Below are positions 1,354 to 44,187 of a DNA stretch of 64,000 nucleotides, in pieces (position 1 is the first letter of the stretch; each line of letters opens with the position of its first letter). This DNA is from Aerococcus mictus (GTDB lineage Bacteria; Bacillota; Bacilli; Lactobacillales; Aerococcaceae): the NCBI RefSeq assembly GCF_003286595.3, contig NZ_CP132985.1, positions 1 to 64,000 of the forward strand, read 5' to 3'. The notes under the pieces were generated by a model. That model saw nothing but the letters and a program-made list of their open reading frames with translations. It searched no databases and was not told the origin of the DNA. The position numbers were made by a program, and so were the translations under genes.

Positions 1354-1600
1354 GCACCTAGCCGACTCTTCTATCATCGAGGCAGGCAAAGTGAGCTTTT
1401 TATGCTAAACTAATAAGAGAAAAAGGCCTGTGGATAAATACCTATGTTAGGCACAAGCCTACCCACAACTTATCCACAAGTGGAAAAGTTTTAAGATCAC
1501 TTCTTTGAGGAAGTTTTCAACAGCTTCCACATGACCTACTACTATTACTATACTATTAATATATATATAAATAAGCACGCATCCAGCAAAGGAGCTTTTT
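1354..1600. other. oriC: oriC-like dnaA-dnaN intergenic region
   Basis: This spacer has two perfect 9-mer DnaA boxes in opposite orientation, TGTGGATAA at 1429-1437 and TTATCCACA at 1470-1478. A run of A and T at about 1540-1575 could act as the unwinding element. The dnaN ribosome binding site (AAAGGAGC, about 1588-1595) closes the region. The box number is low for a full Firmicutes origin. A denser cluster lies at 26.7 kb, and boxes upstream of dnaA, if any, are outside the window. Confidence 0.75.
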
Positions 1601-24867: not shown

Positions 24868-25440
24868 ATGATTAATAATGTCGTCTTAGTCGGCCGATTA
24901 ACTCGGGAAGTTGATCTACGTTATACCCAAAGTGGAACTGCAGTAGCCAACTTTACTGTAGCTTGTGACCGTAACTACCGCAATGCCCAAGGTGAAACCC
25001 AAACAGATTTCATCAATTGTGTGATGTGGCGTAAAGCTGCTGAAAACTTTGCTAAATTTACACGGAAAGGTTCTTTGGTAGGGATTGAAGGCAATATTCA
25101 AACCCGTAACTACGAAAACCAACAAGGCCAACGTGTTTATGTGACTGAAGTCTTAGCAAATAACTTTAGCTTACTGGAACCTAAGAGTGTCACTGAACAA
25201 CGCCCACAAGCCAGTGACAATGGCAATAACTTTGCCAACCCAGGCAATAATTTTGCTAATGACTCTTTTGGCTCTAATCAAAGCTTTGGCGGCTATAATA
25301 ATCAACAAGATTCCCCTTCAATGAATGATAACAGCTTTGGTGGATCCAATGACCCATTTGCTGGTGGAAACAATAATCCTTTCCCATCAAATGATAATGA
25401 CGGATCGATCAATATCGCTGATGATGATCTTCCATTCTAG
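24868..25440 (+). CDS. ssb: Single-stranded DNA-binding protein
   Basis: 190-residue SSB. It has an N-terminal OB fold ([29 protein letters not shown], to about residue 108), then a long low-complexity tail rich in N, G, F and S, and the acidic partner-binding tip DDDLPF at the end. It protects single-stranded DNA and docks repair proteins. It sits between rpsF and rpsR, the usual place of the essential SSB in Firmicutes, where it is co-transcribed with them. Confidence 0.97.
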
Positions 25441-25934: not shown

Positions 25935-26144
25935 ATGAATCGCTTAAAATATTACCGCACACGGTCGGGATTATCGCAAAAAGCTCTAGCTGAAGAGATT
26001 GGCGTTGCTCGTCAAACCGTGAATATGATTGAAAATGACCGTTATAATCCAAGTCTAGAGCTCTGCATTGCCTTAGCCAAAGCCTTAGATACTGATTTAA
26101 ATGCTTTATTTTGGGAGGAAGATGATGATGAGAAAGAAGAATAG
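25935..26144 (+). CDS. XRE-family transcriptional regulator
   Basis: 69-residue protein that is a single helix-turn-helix domain (RTRSGLSQKALAEEIGVARQTVNMIENDRYNPSLELCIALAKAL) with an acidic tail. It belongs to the short XRE group commonly paired with a small membrane protein, as here: the next gene overlaps its end by 20 bases. ATG 25935 follows GGGTGAGGTGAACG. Such pairs often control their own operon; the signal is unknown. Confidence 0.85.
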   Translation: MNRLKYYRTRSGLSQKALAEEIGVARQTVNMIENDRYNPSLELCIALAKALDTDLNALFWEEDDDEKEE

Positions 26145-26646
26145 TCTCTATATTCGTTTCTTAAAATTCTTTTATGGCGTTGAAGAAATGGATGAATATC
26201 GGCTTGTTCAATGTGAGCGTATGGGAAACAAGTGTTTTATTTTTCTATGGTTCTGGGAAGCCATCCTATTTTTAATTGCCCTCTTCTTCCCAGCAGACCA
26301 GTCATCGATCGCCTTTAATTTCATCCTATGGGGATCTTTATTGGGCATCGTTCTGACTATGGTCTATATCCTGGTCTTTTCGATGAAATTAGGCATTCTG
26401 GTTAAGGAAATTGATGCCTCTGATTACTCAGCCAATAAAAAACGGATAAGAAAGAAAACCGCCAAAAGTTCCCTTATCTATGGGATTATCCTTTTCCTAT
26501 TTCAGAGCTTAGGGCAAAAGGTTAGAGAAGTTGCTGTACAATTTGGCCTGAGAGAAGTTGTTTTTCTCTTGGTAGCGACAGTTACTTTTTATCTCTTTAT
26601 GTATTATATGAATATGCATTTATTAAAGAAATATGAGGATTCTTAA
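26125..26646 (+). CDS. Membrane protein of DUF3278 type
   Basis: About 173 residues with four predicted membrane segments (near residues 40-60, 65-90, 115-135 and 145-165) after a cytosolic start YIRFLKFFYGVEEMDEYRLVQCERMGN, which resembles DUF3278 proteins of cocci. Three in-frame ATGs (26122, 26125, 26128) follow GGGAGGA; the middle one gives good spacing. Partner of the preceding XRE gene, with overlapping frames. Family assignment is by resemblance from memory; function unknown. Confidence 0.65.
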   Translation: MMRKKNSLYIRFLKFFYGVEEMDEYRLVQCERMGNKCFIFLWFWEAILFLIALFFPADQSSIAFNFILWGSLLGIVLTMVYILVFSMKLGILVKEIDASDYSANKKRIRKKTAKSSLIYGIILFLFQSLGQKVREVAVQFGLREVVFLLVATVTFYLFMYYMNMHLLKKYEDS

Positions 26647-26690
26647 TATGAAAAGGATCTGTGGATAAATAATTGAATAAGAATTAGAAG

Positions 26691-26721
26691 AAGCCTAGCC
26701 TGAGTGTGCTAGGCTTTTTTT
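26691..26721 (+). terminator. Terminator after the DUF3278-type gene
   Basis: Perfect 9-bp stem AAGCCTAGC / GCTAGGCTT with an 8-base loop, then T run. It lies inside the DnaA-box cluster. Confidence 0.9.
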
Positions 26722-26730
26722 GTGGATAAG

Positions 26731-26746
26731 TGTTTCACGTGAAACA
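26731..26746. other. parS site 1
   Basis: TGTTTCACGTGAAACA, perfect palindrome and match to the ParB/Spo0J consensus. Confidence 0.92.
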
Positions 26747-27441
26747 AAAAAACAGTAGATTTTCACTTGTGGATAAATCTGTTAATAAAACGAATGTTCT
26801 AGCTTGAAATCTTGCTACTAAGCCTTTTGTCATTGTGGATAAGTGTTCGGCTTATAAGTGTTCTGCTAGGAATAAAACTCTTTTCGGTGGTCTTATCCAC
26901 AAGTGGATATCATTTACACACAGTGGATAGAGTGAGGAGTATTTTAATTATTAGGCTTGTGGATAAGCTATAAGATTGACTCAAAGGAAACCCGTCTAGG
27001 TTGAAACCTATTCATATTCATCGTCTAGTCTATGGCTAGATGGATGTAATGGTTATTTCTGCATAGTGACTTCTTTATAACTTGACTATTCTTTTTAGCT
27101 ATTGTTTTGCTTATTTGTAGAGTACTTTCTTTATTAATTAGTAAATAAGAGATGATTGATTGAGTACAAGCTGTGCTTTATTAATAATATTAGCTGGGAT
27201 ATGGTTATTAGCTTTATATACTACTCTCTTTTCATTTAAGATGAACCTGTAATTACTAAATTAAATAGATATAGCTATTAGCTATGAAATACCTTTTTCT
27301 TTTGTTCGTGAGTTAATGACTTTATTAATATTTTGATTAAGCTAGTAATTATAAGGAAAGCATTTAATTGAAAATTTTTTCAAGAATAAGCCGTAGTTTA
27401 CTTTTTAATACGGGTGTCCTCTGCCTAACTAAACTGACTTA

Positions 27442-27457
27442 TGTTTCACGTGAAACA
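27442..27457. other. parS site 2
   Basis: TGTTTCACGTGAAACA, perfect. Confidence 0.92.
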
Positions 27458-27825
27458 TCTTTCTCTTTACTTTGAATTCTTTTTTACAATTTAATTTTAA
27501 CCCTTTAGAGGCGGAGCCTTTGCTTAATTATATAAATTCCTTTTTATCCTACTAAGTCATTGTCATTATGTTCCTTTAAAACTTGTTTACCTCATAAAAT
27601 GACTAAACTGTTTTATTTGATTTGCTCTTCTACTTGGGTGGGTTAATTTGCGCCTTTACCTTATTTCTACCTTACGACTTAATACATTTTGATGCCTTTT
27701 GTAAGAACCCTTATGCCCAACAATATCTCTGCTCTAACTAGAAAGGTATATCAGACTGCTATAAGGACTGAATATGTCTATATAAATACACCAATATAGT
27801 TGAATATCTATTTGTTTTACAGAAT

Positions 27826-27841
27826 TGTTCCACGTGAAACA
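27826..27841. other. parS site 3
   Basis: TGTTCCACGTGAAACA, the exact form of the Bacillus subtilis consensus with C at position 5. Confidence 0.92.
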
Positions 27842-27884
27842 TAAAATTCTCTGTTTAACAGATTTAAAATCACATATATAATAA

Positions 27885-27900
27885 TGTTTCACGTGAAACA
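27885..27900. other. parS site 4
   Basis: TGTTTCACGTGAAACA, perfect; only 59 bases from site 3 (start to start). Confidence 0.92.
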
Positions 27901-28151
27901 TCAGTTATTTGAGGACTTGTTTATCTATATAGTGGCTAGATTTTAAACGAATCAATAGTTATAAAATAAAGAGGCATACTTTTTTAGTGTTAAGTTTACC
28001 CATTTGTGGTGTTTTTGTGTCTTATAGATCTTGTAATACAGGCTTGTACGCCTTAGTGTTGAGGGAATAAGCTATGGAACAGTTAAAAAGTGTGAAACAA
28101 GAGGTATAAACAGATGGGTATTTTAAATAAAACCTCTCAAATTGCTGCTAT

Positions 28152-28167
28152 TGTTTCACGTGAAACA
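28152..28167. other. parS site 5
   Basis: TGTTTCACGTGAAACA, perfect. Confidence 0.92.
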
Positions 28168-28323
28168 ATGAATATGTTCTCAATAAATTATAATAGGAGC
28201 AAAGTTTTCAAGATTTTTAATAAAGTTAGCAGCTCATATACTCATATTCATATACGCTCTCTCGAGGGAGCTATTGTTAGCTAAAGCTAAGTAATGAGAG
28301 TAATCAATCGTCTATTTTCAGAA

Positions 28324-28339
28324 TGTTTTACGTGAAACA
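28324..28339. other. parS site 6 (one mismatch)
   Basis: TGTTTTACGTGAAACA; the left half has T where the others have C, so binding may be weaker. Confidence 0.75.
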
Positions 28340-28842
28340 TTCCATTATGTAGCTAGCAATTTTCTCCCTACATGCGGATATTAATAACTAATCTAATCAT
28401 CCATTCATTCTAAAAAGGCTATAATTGATAAATTACTCTACCTATTAACTAACCTAAACAATAGAATAGAAAGCCAGAAAATTTCTGCATATTTTAATTT
28501 CTTTTTGCAGTAGGTATTCGTATATAAGTCTTTATAAATTAATTATATGAGTGTAGCTTTGTTGCATTTATAACTTTGCTTGCAGTTTTATAAAGCTAAA
28601 TGCTTAATTTCGTGTTTCTTGATTAAGGTAAATAACTTATAGTATCTACTAATTTGCTTCTTATGGATAGACCTATGTAAGGAGATTATTGATAGGCGGC
28701 CCTTTTATATACTTAAGGTTTGAAGTCTTTCTAGCTTTATACAACTGATGATAAATTTAAGCTAGGGTTATATAGAAAATAGAACTGGATGTTCTATTTA
28801 TATCGCTTTTAATTTATTTGCAAATTCAGAAATAAGAAAGTA

Positions 28843-28858
28843 TGTTTCACGTGAAACA
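28843..28858. other. parS site 7
   Basis: TGTTTCACGTGAAACA, perfect. Confidence 0.92.
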
Positions 28859-29084
28859 TTTGTGTGAAAACATCAAAATGGATCCCTTGATAGGGCTTCT
28901 TTTATATCTTCTTATATAAAATAGAAGATATTTCTACCGTTCAAGTTTAATAACTTGTATTGATTATGAAATCTAGGCTTGACCTCTTAAAACTTACCTT
29001 ACTCCGATGTCAGCTCTTTCAATGACACTAATGCTTTCCTGTACCGATCCCTCACCGACTCCTATAGCCCAAGAATAGGAAATC

Positions 29085-29113
29085 TTTAGAATTTATTAAA
29101 AATATGGTAAAAT
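29085..29113 (+). promoter_or_regulatory. Promoter of gdpP
   Basis: TTTAGA, 17-base spacer, extended -10 TGGTAAAAT (TAAAAT at 29108-29113). Confidence 0.6.
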
Positions 29114-29159
29114 AGAGGATGTATGTATACTTTTATCGTTAACTACAAAGGAGAAAAAT

Positions 29160-31190
29160 ATGAAAGATAATAAACATAGTGGACGTCTGTCCAATATCTT
29201 AAATCAATCCAATATTTTTGTGCCTTTGGTTATTGCTGCCATCTTAGTTTTCCTAGCGGTAGGGATGTTAATGCATAACAATCCCTTAATAGCTATGATT
29301 TCATTTCTTTTGGTTATTTTTGCTATTATTCTGGTTTATGTGGCTTTTAGGCTGATTGAACAGGAACTGAATAAGCAGGTCTATAACCTCACTGACGATA
29401 TTCAAACCATTGAAAATGAAATTCTCTTACAGATTCCTCTAGGAATTATTTTGTTTGAAGAGGATGACACCATACGTTGGATGAATCCCTATATGCAAAA
29501 TTACTTTAATAGTAGTGATACTTTAGGCAATAAGATTGATGACGTGGATAGCGTGTTATCCGATATCTACCACCAATTAAAAGAAACGGATGAAGATGAT
29601 GTCACTGGTCACCCCATTTCCTGGGATGACCACTATCTCTCGGTGGGACTTTTGGAAGATCAAAATGCCATGTACATGCTAGATATCACTGAATACGGTC
29701 GTATTGCAGATGTGGCTGACAAGAACCGTCTAGTCATTGCCAACATCTTAATTGACAACTATGACGAAACCATCGCTTCCTATTCCGACCGGCGGAAATC
29801 CACAGTGGATAACTTTATGACTAAGCAATTATTCGCTTGGGCTAAGAAATTTGGCTCTTTTATCAAGCGCCTGGACGATGACCGTTTCCTCTTAGTCACT
29901 ACTTATGGGGAATTGATGGAAATGGAAGAAGATCGCTTTTCAGTGATTGATACCATTCGCGAGACCACCTCTAAGGGCAACTTCCCCTTGACCATTTCCA
30001 TGGGGATTTCTTACCAAGAAGAGGATGATGAAGCGCCCGATATTGGTAAAATTAATGAAATTGCCCAATCTAACTTGGATTTAGCTCTCAGTCGTGGGGG
30101 AGACCAGGTGGTAATTAAGATTGAAAGCGAAAAAGCTCGTTACTATGGTGGGAAAACCAACCCGATGGTGAAGAGAACACACGTTCGATCTCGCCAAATC
30201 GCCACCACTATCGCTCAAATGATGCAACAAAACGAATCCATCTTTGTTATGGGGCATGATTATCCGGATATGGATGCTATCGGGGCCTGCATTGGGATCC
30301 GCCGTATTGCCGAGATGAATGATCGCAAGTGTCATATTATTATTGATGAATCGCGGATCAATTCTGATATTGAGAAGTTACTGGTGGAATTACGTAAGGA
30401 CGAGGTCATTAATGAAGCGATCATTAGTCCCCAAGAGGCTGAAGAGCTGATCGAACACAATTCCTTACTCTTTATCGTTGATGTTCACCGGCCTTCCATT
30501 ACTACCGCACCGAAGTTGATTGATATGGTGAATGGGGTAGTGGTTATCGACCACCATCGTAAAGGGGAAGAATATCCTGAGAATGTCCTTCTAGAGTATA
30601 TTGAACCTTATGCCTCATCAACCTGTGAACTGATCACCGAATTCTTTGAATATCAAAATGCTTCCTCTAAATCCATTAACCGGATCGAAGCAACAACCAT
30701 GTTAGCTGGGATTATTATTGACTCCAGAAACTTTACCCTAAGAACGGGATCACGGACCTTTGACGCGGCTTCTTACTTAAAATCCTGTGGAGCCGATTCA
30801 ATCCTGATTCAAGAGTTCCTCAAGGAGGACTTGTCCGAATACATTAAACGGAATGAATTGATCGAAAGCGTCGACATCATGCCCCCTTACTATGGGATCG
30901 CTGCGGGGGACGATGACACGGTCTATTCCACAGTGACTGCGGCTCAGGCGGCTGACTCCTTACTCTCCATGAATGGCATTGTGGCTTCCTTCGTGGTCTT
31001 CTTAAGGGAAGACAAGCGGGTAGGGATCTCTGCTCGTAGTATGGGGAATGTCAATGTGCAAACCGTTATGGAAGAACTTGGTGGTGGTGGTCACTTGTCT
31101 AATGCCGCTACCCAAATTTCTGATGTGACAGTCAGTCAAGCCCGTGAGTTACTAATTGATGTGATTAAGAAACAAAGTGAGGAAGACTAA
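29160..31190 (+). CDS. gdpP: Cyclic-di-AMP phosphodiesterase GdpP
   Basis: Degrades the second messenger c-di-AMP at the membrane. The 676-residue product has two N-terminal membrane segments (about 18-40 and 42-62), a PAS-like region, a degenerate GGDEF domain (about 170-305), and a DHH/DHHA1 phosphodiesterase with metal motifs GHDYPDMDAIG (about 365-375), DVHRP, DHHRKG (464-469) and GGGGHLSNAATQ near 640. Length and order match GdpP/YybT. AAAGGAGAAAAAT precedes ATG 29160. As in other Firmicutes it lies close upstream of rplI and the replicative helicase, although here an ABC cassette intervenes. The putative c-di-AMP synthase partner (cdaR tail) is at the window end. Confidence 0.95.
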   Translation: MKDNKHSGRLSNILNQSNIFVPLVIAAILVFLAVGMLMHNNPLIAMISFLLVIFAIILVYVAFRLIEQELNKQVYNLTDDIQTIENEILLQIPLGIILFEEDDTIRWMNPYMQNYFNSSDTLGNKIDDVDSVLSDIYHQLKETDEDDVTGHPISWDDHYLSVGLLEDQNAMYMLDITEYGRIADVADKNRLVIANILIDNYDETIASYSDRRKSTVDNFMTKQLFAWAKKFGSFIKRLDDDRFLLVTTYGELMEMEEDRFSVIDTIRETTSKGNFPLTISMGISYQEEDDEAPDIGKINEIAQSNLDLALSRGGDQVVIKIESEKARYYGGKTNPMVKRTHVRSRQIATTIAQMMQQNESIFVMGHDYPDMDAIGACIGIRRIAEMNDRKCHIIIDESRINSDIEKLLVELRKDEVINEAIISPQEAEELIEHNSLLFIVDVHRPSITTAPKLIDMVNGVVVIDHHRKGEEYPENVLLEYIEPYASSTCELITEFFEYQNASSKSINRIEATTMLAGIIIDSRNFTLRTGSRTFDAASYLKSCGADSILIQEFLKEDLSEYIKRNELIESVDIMPPYYGIAAGDDDTVYSTVTAAQAADSLLSMNGIVASFVVFLREDKRVGISARSMGNVNVQTVMEELGGGGHLSNAATQISDVTVSQARELLIDVIKKQSEED

Positions 31191-35977: not shown

Positions 35978-36042
35978 TTTATAAGGGTAGATCAGTAAGG
36001 TAAAGTAATGGAAACGTTGGTATAGCTGGTATAATAGATATC

Positions 36043-36162
36043 TTGAAATTTTAGAAAGTAAATTTTTCCGTTTAGGACGGAAGAAAAGACGGAAGACATT
36101 TCCACCCATCGCTGACTTAAAAATATAGACTACTTAAATAATTGCCCCAAGAGGGCTTTTTT
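36043..36162 (+). ncRNA. Candidate plus-strand small RNA
   Basis: An extended -10 TGGTATAAT (TATAAT at 36030-36035) is followed by about 120 bases with a TTCCGT / ACGGAA hairpin (36066-36082) and a short GCCC / GGGC hairpin with T6 (36144-36162). No open frame of note. The terminator stem is only about 4-5 bp, so confidence is low. Confidence 0.3.
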
Positions 36163-36191
36163 ATTGCAATTCTGTTCTATTTTGGGCTAAA

Positions 36192-36325
36192 AGAAAAAGC
36201 CTATCAGCGGTAAAGATATAATAGGCTTAACCATTGCGGTTATTGAGCTAATCCTTACACTAATAGACTTAATCAAAAATCTTTAATCATTTTCTTACGA
36301 GGCTAGTACGCTAGTCCCGTCCCTT
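36192..36325 (-). ncRNA. Candidate minus-strand small RNA A
   Basis: On the minus strand TGATATAATAAAA (TATAAT at 36332-36337) is followed by about 130 bases ending in AAGCCTAT / ATAGGCTT (36197-36204 with 36221-36228) and a T-rich run. It has the same promoter string and layout as candidate B at 36648-36801. No credible open frame with a ribosome site was found in it. Confidence 0.45.
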
Positions 36326-36367
36326 GTTTTTATTATATCATGTCTGTAAGATCTAATGAATCTAATT

Positions 36368-36544
36368 TTACTCATTTAATGCCTCTAGTAAGTCATCAAC
36401 ATTATCATAAGTTTTTAGTTGGTTGCCTTCTGCTTCTGCCCGTGCTTGCCTGTTCTCAATTTTCTTCTTTGTTGCCGGTTTGTCCGGTAACTCTCCTACT
36501 TTTTCTTTTAATTCATCATCCATCCTTATGTTAATTCTAGACAT
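36368..36544 (-). CDS. Shortened RelB/DinJ-like antitoxin, orphan
   Basis: 58-residue product. The first 15 residues (MSRINIRMDDELKEK) match the ribbon-helix-helix start of RelB/DinJ antitoxins. The end (AEGNQLKTYDNVDDLLEALNE without the first A) matches their toxin-binding tail. The roughly 25 residues expected between them, which build the dimer core, are missing or replaced by PDKPATKKKIENRQ. No RelE/YafQ-type toxin gene is next to it. It is therefore probably an internally deleted remnant or a divergent solitary regulator. AAAGGGG lies about 9 bases before ATG 36544. Confidence 0.55.
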   Translation of the reverse strand: MSRINIRMDDELKEKVGELPDKPATKKKIENRQARAEAEGNQLKTYDNVDDLLEALNE

Positions 36545-36647
36545 ATAGACAAGCCCCTTTATCATAACTATTTACCAATGTTATACCAGCATTAGCTTAT
36601 TTGTACTAATAATAGGATTTTGGCATTGATATCCCTGAATTTACATA

Positions 36648-36801
36648 GAAAAAAGCGGCCTAAAGACCGCTCAAGCATTAAACTATCAATTGCATACATT
36701 GGGCTAATAACGGCAATTATTAGACTTGCAATTGTTTTGATTCAACTTATAACAATGCTATAGTAATTCCACAAAACGGGCACTTAGTGCACCCAACTTT
36801 T
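36648..36801 (-). ncRNA. Candidate minus-strand small RNA B
   Basis: Promoter TGATATAATAAAA on the minus strand (TATAAT at 36808-36813), a GGGTGCAC / GTGCCC hairpin near the 5' end, and a terminal AGCGG / CCGCT hairpin followed by T6. About 150 bases. It resembles candidate A in promoter, length and order of parts, and the two flank the RelB-like gene. Confidence 0.45.
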
Positions 36802-36950
36802 ACTTTTATTATATCACGCTAGTAAGCAGGCAACAAGATGATCAAAAAGAAAAAGCAGGTTTATCCTATCGCTACTGGTCGAGTGTGTCCAATCGTCAAA
36901 AATCACTCTCCTTGGACAATAAAGTTTTCTTATATTAAGTAAAGTTTCTC

Positions 36951-36979
36951 TTTACTTTTTCATGTGAAAGTTGTAACAT
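36951..36979 (+). promoter_or_regulatory. Promoter/operator P1
   Basis: TTTACT, 17-base spacer holding the palindrome TTTCATGTGAAA, then TAACAT at 36974-36979. The first 20 bases are identical to those of P2 at 37186. A 7-bp hairpin with a TTCG loop (GTGACAG / CTGTCAC, 36986-37003) starts at the expected RNA 5' end. Confidence 0.6.
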
Positions 36980-37020
36980 ATAGAGGTGACAGTTCGCTGT
37001 CACTATACCATATTCATTGT

Positions 37021-37096
37021 GGTCATTCGAATAAGGGTAGCTTGTTGGTATCTGATGAAAATTTTCCTTGGGTATTTCAATAGGCTACCTCTTTTC
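37021..37096 (+). repeat. GGTCATTCGAATA stem-loop element, copy 1
   Basis: GGTCATTCGAATA at 37021-37033, then GGTAGC (37036-37041) pairing with GCTACC (37084-37089) over about 42 bases, then TCTTTTC. It may end a short transcript from P1. Copy 2 follows the alcohol dehydrogenase gene. Confidence 0.55.
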
Positions 37097-37185
37097 GTAT
37101 TTATAGCTATTAAGCGCAATTATTAAGTCGAATGAAATGGTCTTAACTCACATGCTTTGGCTCTTTAAGTCCTTTAAAACATTGC

Positions 37186-37214
37186 TTTACTTTTTCATGT
37201 GAAAGATATAACAT
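37186..37214 (+). promoter_or_regulatory. Promoter/operator P2 of the alcohol dehydrogenase
   Basis: TTTACT, 17-base spacer with TTTCATGTGAAA, TAACAT at 37209-37214. It lies 48 bases upstream of the start codon. A repressor bound between -35 and -10 would block transcription directly. Confidence 0.65.
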
Positions 37215-37262
37215 AATAAATGAAAACGGATACATAAAGGAAAATGTGAAAGGAGTCTTATC

Positions 37263-43958: not shown

Positions 43959-44187
43959 GAAAAAAGCCCACCTCTAACAAGAGGCGGACTTATCCACGGT
44001 ACCACTCTAATATCACAAAATACTTGCAATGCTTGACATGGTAACGCCTGGGTGGCGGACTTAGCTAAGTATTCACTAAGTCATCTCAGCAATGCGCTTC
44101 CCACTAGGTCTTTGGGAACTTTCCACTAACGTTCCTCACTTTACAAATCCTCTAGCGGTACTCTTTGCTTCATCGATTCTATGATTA
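43959..44187 (-). promoter_or_regulatory. T-box riboswitch, arginine type, for argG
   Basis: On the minus strand the leader contains the T-box sequence AGAGTGGTACCGTGG (43994-44008 in plus coordinates) and a terminator GTCCGCCTCT / AGAGGTGGGC followed by T6 (about 43959-43990). The Stem I start GATGAAGCAAAGAGTACC and a specifier-like CGC followed by A in AAGCGCATTGC are also present. CGC would select tRNA-Arg, consistent with argG. The specifier call is by eye. Confidence 0.88.

Follow-up and report, generated by a model that had tools for sequence, protein, structure and literature searches.

The question raised by this locus is what a stretch of DNA lying 26 kb from dnaA, without a gene and carrying both DnaA boxes and parS sites, does for the chromosome of Aerococcus mictus. 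The first-pass annotation had offered three answers: the functional origin, a second half of the origin, or a centre for the loading of ParB. The window, by which is meant the whole stretch of 64,000 nucleotides that was analysed, starts at the first base of dnaA, and the features around the stretch in question are these:

24868..25440, + strand: ssb, upstream neighbour of the gap (profile match, A. tenax annotation)
26101-26646: DUF3278 gene, upstream border of the gap (annotation in A. tenax)
26647..29159, no strand: composite locus, the AT-rich gap that separates the DUF3278 gene from gdpP and holds no gene (ORF list, GC)
26660..26966: DnaA-box cluster, exact boxes at 26660 (-), 26721 (-), 26768 (-), 26834 (-), 26893 (+) and 26958 (-) (motif scan)
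26697..26715, + strand: terminator-like hairpin inside the box cluster (consensus scan only)
26731..26746, no strand: parS 1, exact, inside the DnaA-box cluster and one base away from the box at 26721-26729
27442..27457, no strand: parS 2, exact (motif scan)
27826..27841, no strand: parS 3, one mismatch, TGTTCC half-site (motif scan)
27885..27900, no strand: parS 4, exact (motif scan and comparison with G001 and A. tenax)
28152..28167, no strand: parS 5, exact (motif scan)
28324..28339, no strand: parS 6, one mismatch, TGTTTT half-site (motif scan)
28843..28858, no strand: parS 7, exact, 301 bases before gdpP (motif scan)
29160..31190, + strand: gdpP/yybT-type DHH phosphoesterase, conserved neighbour of the array (NCBIfam, A. 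tenax annotation)

The gap at 26647-29159 comprises 2513 bases at 30.2% GC and has no ORF of at least 80 aa, which bears out the claim that the region holds no gene. With the threshold lowered to 40 aa three ORFs of 53-56 aa appear inside it, and nothing beyond these was found by way of hidden genes. There is no RNA family match in the gap at the gathering threshold and, sites aside, the search for tandem duplication gave just short two-copy repeats of 14-36 bases. The ORF at 29160..31190 is presumably gdpP/yybT; its best NCBIfam match, PRK14538.1, scores 391.9 bits, under the cut-off of 707, and its counterpart in A. tenax is annotated as a DHH family phosphoesterase. The DUF3278-annotated ORF has no NCBIfam match. 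Elsewhere in the window a T-box leader is present at 43977-44182 (-), upstream of a minus-strand ORF that is probably the gene annotated as argininosuccinate synthase in A. tenax.

The DnaA-box motif scanned for was TTATCCACA. It occurs exactly 9 times in the 64 kb, against 0.69 expected, and none of 100 shuffles reaches 9; six of the nine lie within 26660-26966, so that the six perfect boxes in 307 bases of the first-pass annotation are all there and all exact. These are several intergenic boxes outside oriC, as in the DnaA-box clusters of B. subtilis. The parS search (TGTTTCACGTGAAACA, up to three mismatches allowed) returned 9 sites against 0.19 expected, a number again reached by none of 100 shuffles. 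Seven of these, five exact and two (27826, 28324) with one mismatch, span the claimed 2.1 kb at 26731-28858, and the remaining two lie outside the array with three mismatches each. Both groups of sites are therefore present as described; the order given, boxes and then parS, does not hold, as the first parS sits within the box cluster.

A survey of parS, with at most one mismatch, in 40 relatives included 15 Aerococcus genomes, of which 13 are at least 90% complete and two (G005, G009) 85% complete. These 15 carry 1 to 11 parS each, 79 in total, and all 79 fall in a single gap just upstream of gdpP, the genome counts being equal to the gap counts. A gap with parS at this place is found in 15 of 15 genomes, 1.6-4.4 kb long, and the same gaps hold 44 exact DnaA boxes, 1-6 each, where 0.01-0.06 would be expected per gap. 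Twelve have at least two exact boxes and three (G007, G010, G011) have one. The boxes are mostly at the end distal to gdpP, with one of two in mid-gap in G005. At an ORF threshold of 110 aa two of the gaps are not free of ORFs: in G013 two mechanical minus-strand ORFs, of 156 and 114 aa, extend into the gap or lie inside it, and in G012 one ORF of 110 aa overlaps the gdpP end. Minus-strand ORFs adjoin the gap, replacing the ssb-rpsR side, in six genomes (G004, G005, G008, G010, G012, G015). The distance from dnaA to gdpP varies from 14.7 to 31.9 kb (13 of 15 genomes, with both on one contig), which means that the array keeps company with gdpP, and the range from 11 sites down to the single site of G006, the smallest array, indicates that a large number is not essential. 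The comparison of the interval across Aerococcus genomes, which had been proposed as a check, thus finds parS and boxes in the same gap in every one. It appears that Aerococcus gathers its parS sites in a single short stretch, largely devoid of genes, in which DnaA boxes are found as well; so compact a layout is not usual in this bacterial group.

The sites are kept where the DNA between them is not. Two close sequences were available: A. tenax CP127381.1, 83% identical to the window over 26001-29500 and the sole Aerococcus match in the plasmid collection, and G001, the nearest relative genome compared, which shares 22% of sampled 31-letter words with the window. The A. tenax record, of 591,691 bp and labelled plasmid unnamed1, opens with dnaA, dnaN, gyrB and gyrA (L180, 1-43570) and is probably a chromosome fragment, not a plasmid. 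Against G001, box bases are identical at 54/54 and parS bases at 107/112, with 188/241 for the spacer among the boxes and 855/1794 (48%) for the spacer at 26970-28860; against A. tenax the corresponding figures are 54/54, 109/112, 209/241 and 1391/1794 (78%). When the site mask was shifted circularly at random 2000 times (zero shift included), 2 and 3 shifts reached the observed totals in the G001 and A. tenax comparisons. The alignment baseline for unrelated sequence is 42% identity. In eight neighbouring genes, fourfold sites show 61-93% identity to G001, and 10 of 12 other intergenic stretches are 86-95% identical over their full length. The other two, 86 bases after dnaN (64%) and 1263 bases at 36000-37262 (59%), diverge like the gap as a whole (58%), so fast divergence is not unique to the gap. 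The poor conservation of sites that the first-pass annotation had weighed against its own reading is not seen.

The parS spacings of the window (711, 384, 59, 267, 172, 519) are nearly kept in G001 (717, 375, 60, 248, 240, 529), which has a counterpart for all seven sites, two of them departing from the consensus at two positions; the number is seven in A. tenax too, with somewhat different spacing. The fourth site is TGTTTCACGTGAAACA in the window, TGTTTCACGTGGAACA in A. tenax, with one half-site altered, and TGTTCCACGTGGAACA in G001, where both half-sites are altered and the palindrome is preserved. Over 26950-29050 of the window, identity with G001 is about 50%, with an abrupt fall from the better conserved flanks. 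This suggests allele replacement by recombination at the centromere, which is as likely as fast point mutation because identity falls sharply at both edges of the array.

The proteins that would act on such an array are encoded in the relatives. ParB is present once per genome in 15 of 15 Aerococcus, ParA lies beside parB in 13 of 13 Aerococcus loci read (G002 and G003 are not among them), and SMC scores above its cut-off in every genome but the draft G008 (14 of 15). The parB gene is 20-64 kb away on the opposite side of dnaA (G015, G003, G001). From these relatives, the window genome would be predicted to have ParB, ParA and SMC of its own. The 16-bp palindromes match the ParB consensus and exceed chance in the window, as the counts in 15 genomes also show, and their position 26 kb from dnaA in the window is origin-proximal. 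This is like the Firmicute ParABS centromere (Spo0J/ParB-parS), with the same palindrome, an origin-proximal location and, in relatives, ParA and ParB genes near oriC, but the sites found in Aerococcus are confined to one gap of a few kb.

Judged from the DNA, then, the gap is quite probably the centromere at which ParB loads on the Aerococcus chromosome, joined to a DnaA-box cluster close to oriC. Its role is probably in segregation and in the timing of replication, not that of a second origin. The proposal of a ParB loading centre is accordingly the one that is well supported by the sequence, through site conservation, the single locus in 15 of 15 genomes, and the ParB, ParA and SMC genes of relatives. 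ParB loads as CTP-dependent clamps. Here a Spo0J-type ParB would recognise the seven palindromes, and its clamps would load at parS, spread over largely untranscribed DNA, recruit SMC and stimulate ParA (Soj), with the origin region being moved in consequence. Available sections of PMC7022226 describe ParB on parS as recruiting SMC and working with ParA. Replication itself would begin at oriC around dnaA, and the six boxes, 26 kb away, would be duplicated soon after. Bound by DnaA, the duplicated boxes might then lower free DnaA and hinder re-initiation, a titration role borrowed from B. subtilis. ParA and ParB on the same DNA could couple this titration to segregation; Soj regulates DnaA in B. 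subtilis, according to excerpts of PMC5295017 and PMC13220808.

That the array is free of transcription from its upstream neighbour is suggested by the hairpin at 26697-26715, which possibly ends transcription coming from the DUF3278 gene, and by a promoter-like site at 29085-29113, both found by consensus only. Promoter-like sites in the region number 11, fewer than the 17.5 expected.

The alternative that survives best goes further than the preferred reading, with which it overlaps and which it extends: a centromere gated by DnaA as in Caulobacter, where DnaA bound at the cluster would directly control ParB loading or the start of centromere movement. It is put forward tentatively, as a possibility well short of an even chance. 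In Caulobacter crescentus there are DnaA boxes at the parS region near the origin, the initiator can act directly on the centromere, and DnaA, which binds parS there, still supports partitioning when there is too little of it for replication (excerpts of PMC6399470). The window, A. tenax and 8 of 15 genomes have a parS-like site (at most two mismatches) inside the box cluster or no more than 60 bases away from it, with two mismatches in 3 of those 8, and an exact box has an exact parS one base away in both the window and G001. Boxes interleaved with parS are, however, not found in the other 7 of 15 genomes, where the cluster is without parS, and an exact box no more than 30 bases from an exact parS core was found, in both searches, in only one (G001) of 398 Bacilli genomes, a sample that included two Aerococcus. 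The proximity of boxes and parS is similar to that of the DnaA-binding centromere of Caulobacter, although the lineage is unrelated, and any action of DnaA on Aerococcus partitioning is putative. In a wider form, similarly doubtful, the locus would be a Firmicute composite convergent with that of Caulobacter, in which DnaA bound next to and among parS directly gates ParB loading or segregation, with an occasional second origin in one Aerococcus clade.

Replication is very unlikely to be initiated in the gap, whether as the sole origin or at a second site beside oriC, by DnaA assembling on the boxes and opening the adjacent AT-rich DNA. The exact boxes in the gap equal in number those around dnaA in G001 (6 and 6), and the gap is only 30% GC, both as such an origin would have it. 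The anatomy of the dnaA region nevertheless places oriC elsewhere, and the relevant feature in the window is:

1354..1600, + strand: dnaA-dnaN spacer with two exact DnaA boxes (1429, 1470) and a DnaA-trio run (motif scans)

The two exact boxes that had been reported for this spacer are indeed there; they do not make up all of oriC, since the window has nothing upstream of dnaA. G001 has four exact boxes 66-233 bases upstream of dnaA, beyond the reach of the window, and two in the dnaA-dnaN spacer, an arrangement that is the B. subtilis plan. A run of five DnaA-trios, CTACTACTATTACTA, is present at 1536-1550, and the spacer with this run is the probable unwinding site of oriC. DnaA-trios are called essential in excerpts of PMC13220808. 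Runs of at least five occur in 13 of 15 dnaA-dnaN spacers (not G005 or G006), beginning 22 bases after a relaxed box in 5 of these 13, against a box-adjacent run (9-59 bases from the box, four or more trios) in only one of 17 gaps, that of G001. Beside the boxes of the window's gap or of A. tenax there is no run of at least four, the longest being 3 and 2 respectively. Unlike a Bacillus-type oriC, the window's gap lacks such a run 3' of a box (longest 3), and it lies 26 kb from dnaA instead of flanking it, with 17 annotated genes separating the two in A. tenax. Trio-like runs of at least five anywhere in the gaps are in excess, at 8 in 16 gaps compared with about 2.7 expected from first-order resampling, which would favour an origin. 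The runs making up this excess are mostly away from boxes (G001, G002, G003, G005, G006, G008, G014).

The GC skew check that had been proposed gives a divided answer, with the switch near dnaA in G001, G003 and G014 and at the gap in G004 and G015. Cumulative GC skew reaches its minimum at +4.5 kb (G001) and +2.7 kb (G003); G015 has two minima of nearly equal depth, one at dnaA and one at +19.6 kb. Gene-wise GC3 places the optimal switch point at +4 kb in G001, +3 in G003, +4 in G014, +19 in G015 and +29 in G004, and for the last two, which are close sisters among the five genomes, this coincides with the gap. There dnaA is below the best switch point by 4.7 (G015) and 4.1 (G004) lnL units, and the gap is favoured over dnaA by 2.6 (G004) and 4.7 (G015) units, but the bootstrap intervals include dnaA (-2.1 to 20 kb in G015, -12.6 to 40 kb in G004). 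With all genes counted the gap is 5.5-7.2 lnL units under the best point in G001, G003 and G014; in G014 it outscores dnaA (-6.8 and -8.8), +1 to +4 kb being best. Omission of the genes at 0-11.5 kb moves the optimum to dnaA in G001 and to, or near, the gap in the other four of five (G003 +22, G014 +15), which again would suit an origin in the gap, as would a skew in the dnaA-gap interval that is intermediate in G001 and left-arm-like in G015 (GC3 by arm and strand). In the G004/G015 clade (loci L307-L316, L140-L159), dnaA, gyrB and gyrA have lagging-type GC3 skew and the switch follows the gap.

The strand-skew tests are fragile, the switch point depending on which genes are kept. The gene-matched test against outgroups is not clean either: the mean skew of gyrB and gyrA minus that of gdpP and dnaB is -0.30 in 17 Aerococcus rows and -0.30 in 3 relatives with boxes, -0.04 in 6 family relatives without boxes, -0.27 in 7 of the order and -0.14 in 49 named loci. 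Low gyrB and gyrA skew is partly gene-specific, since it is also present in genera without the cluster, and this takes from the case for an origin in the gap. Cumulative GC skew, GC3 skew, gene-matched skew, switch-point likelihood and trio scans were all brought to bear on the second origin, which was demoted to a minor rival. It is concluded, mainly from its anatomy, that oriC is at dnaA, with a small probability left for initiation at the gap. The functional origin or second origin half of the first-pass annotation is not upheld as the main explanation, given that 13 of 15 genomes have trio runs at dnaA-dnaN, that no such run accompanies the boxes in the gap of the window, that G001 has further oriC boxes upstream of dnaA, and that the evidence of skew is mixed.

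Control of the transcription of gdpP or of the DUF3278 gene is most unlikely to be the main role of the boxes and parS: the gap does adjoin gdpP in 15 of 15 genomes and has the promoter-like site at its gdpP end, but the boxes start 13 bases past the end of the DUF3278 ORF and 2.2-2.5 kb before gdpP, the terminator-like hairpin separates the DUF3278 gene from five of the six boxes, and seven distributed palindromes are not an operator layout. That the gap is a decayed gene or mobile DNA with the sites as remnants, as its fast-diverging spacer might suggest, can be practically dismissed, as sites and spacing are kept where spacers are not, with parS and boxes at the same position across the genus.

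Both kinds of site are also found beside gdpP outside Aerococcus. A 43-taxon FastTree of GyrB, GyrA and GdpP was read against site counts; seven of its nodes have support below 0.9, among them one of 0.79 involving the relatives G016-G022. Outgroup loci came from a scan of genome contigs (the best 80 of 579, mostly lactobacilli, with four Aerococcus loci). Exact boxes upstream of gdpP are found in the five Trichococcus loci that the tree includes, in G019 (placed among them by the tree), in G023 and G024, and in Aerococcus, and there are none in the gap of G016-G018 and G020-G022, the group beside Aerococcus. In the one Trichococcus locus checked (L219) the boxes are clear of ORFs of at least 80 aa. 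Where relatives have no array, there are mostly two parS, one ahead of an ORF of ssb size and the other ahead of gdpP; in related genera the sites flank an ORF with the size and place of ssb. Three or more parS in the gap are seen in 13 of 15 Aerococcus genomes, G023, G024 and Atopobacter phocae. Outside the genus, the highest counts among the relatives are 12 over 259 kb (G030) and 9 over 91 kb (G037), the remainder having 1-5 each. The parsimonious reading is of an old parS and box cluster beside gdpP, later expanded in Aerococcus. In Atopobacter phocae (L247, 73-483) five parS lie in about 410 bases upstream of gdpP. They belong to a 98-base tandem repeat of 4.2 copies, on a contig that begins shortly before, and this is a different route to a parS array at the same place.

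The components of the locus are known singly: dense parS arrays in Myxococcus, extra box clusters in B. subtilis, and DnaA-binding centromeres in Caulobacter. B. subtilis has 10 parS, 8 of them in the ori domain (excerpts of PMC7022226). Myxococcus xanthus has 22 putative parS in 3 kb, with parAB about 35 kb from oriC, according to the available part of PMC3899335; this is likewise a dense array, although in another phylum and with another consensus, and that part mentions no DnaA boxes. Box clusters outside oriC restrain initiation in B. subtilis, and deletion of all six leads to early initiation (PMC5295017, PMC13220808, as excerpted). The Aerococcus cluster is also outside oriC, but is fused to a parS array and has a putative role. 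The centromere locus rctA/parS2 of Vibrio cholerae chromosome II binds the replication initiator and seems to titrate it (same excerpts of PMC6399470); it differs in its initiator, RctB, and in being on a secondary chromosome. The combination of a parS array with a DnaA-box cluster in a Firmicute looks to be new: no report of it was found in the open-licence literature, as far as the accessible portions of the sources go, nor any paper there on Aerococcus with the DnaA box. Among the matches listed, those for Aerococcus with parS are on other subjects and those for parS with gdpP are unrelated, going by the portions available.

In the Aerococcus centromere the sites and their rough spacing persist while the intervening DNA diverges almost beyond alignment, and for this reason the functional unit appears to be the array of sites, not the sequence. 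For the coupling of replication initiation to origin segregation outside Caulobacter and Vibrio, Aerococcus is a compact natural construct, with parS and a box cluster in one removable piece and natural variants of 1 to 11 sites. Gating by DnaA, if true, would mean that a single compact element sets the timing of both replication and segregation. The placing of parS and boxes together in one early-copied stretch would remove free DnaA and start segregation together.
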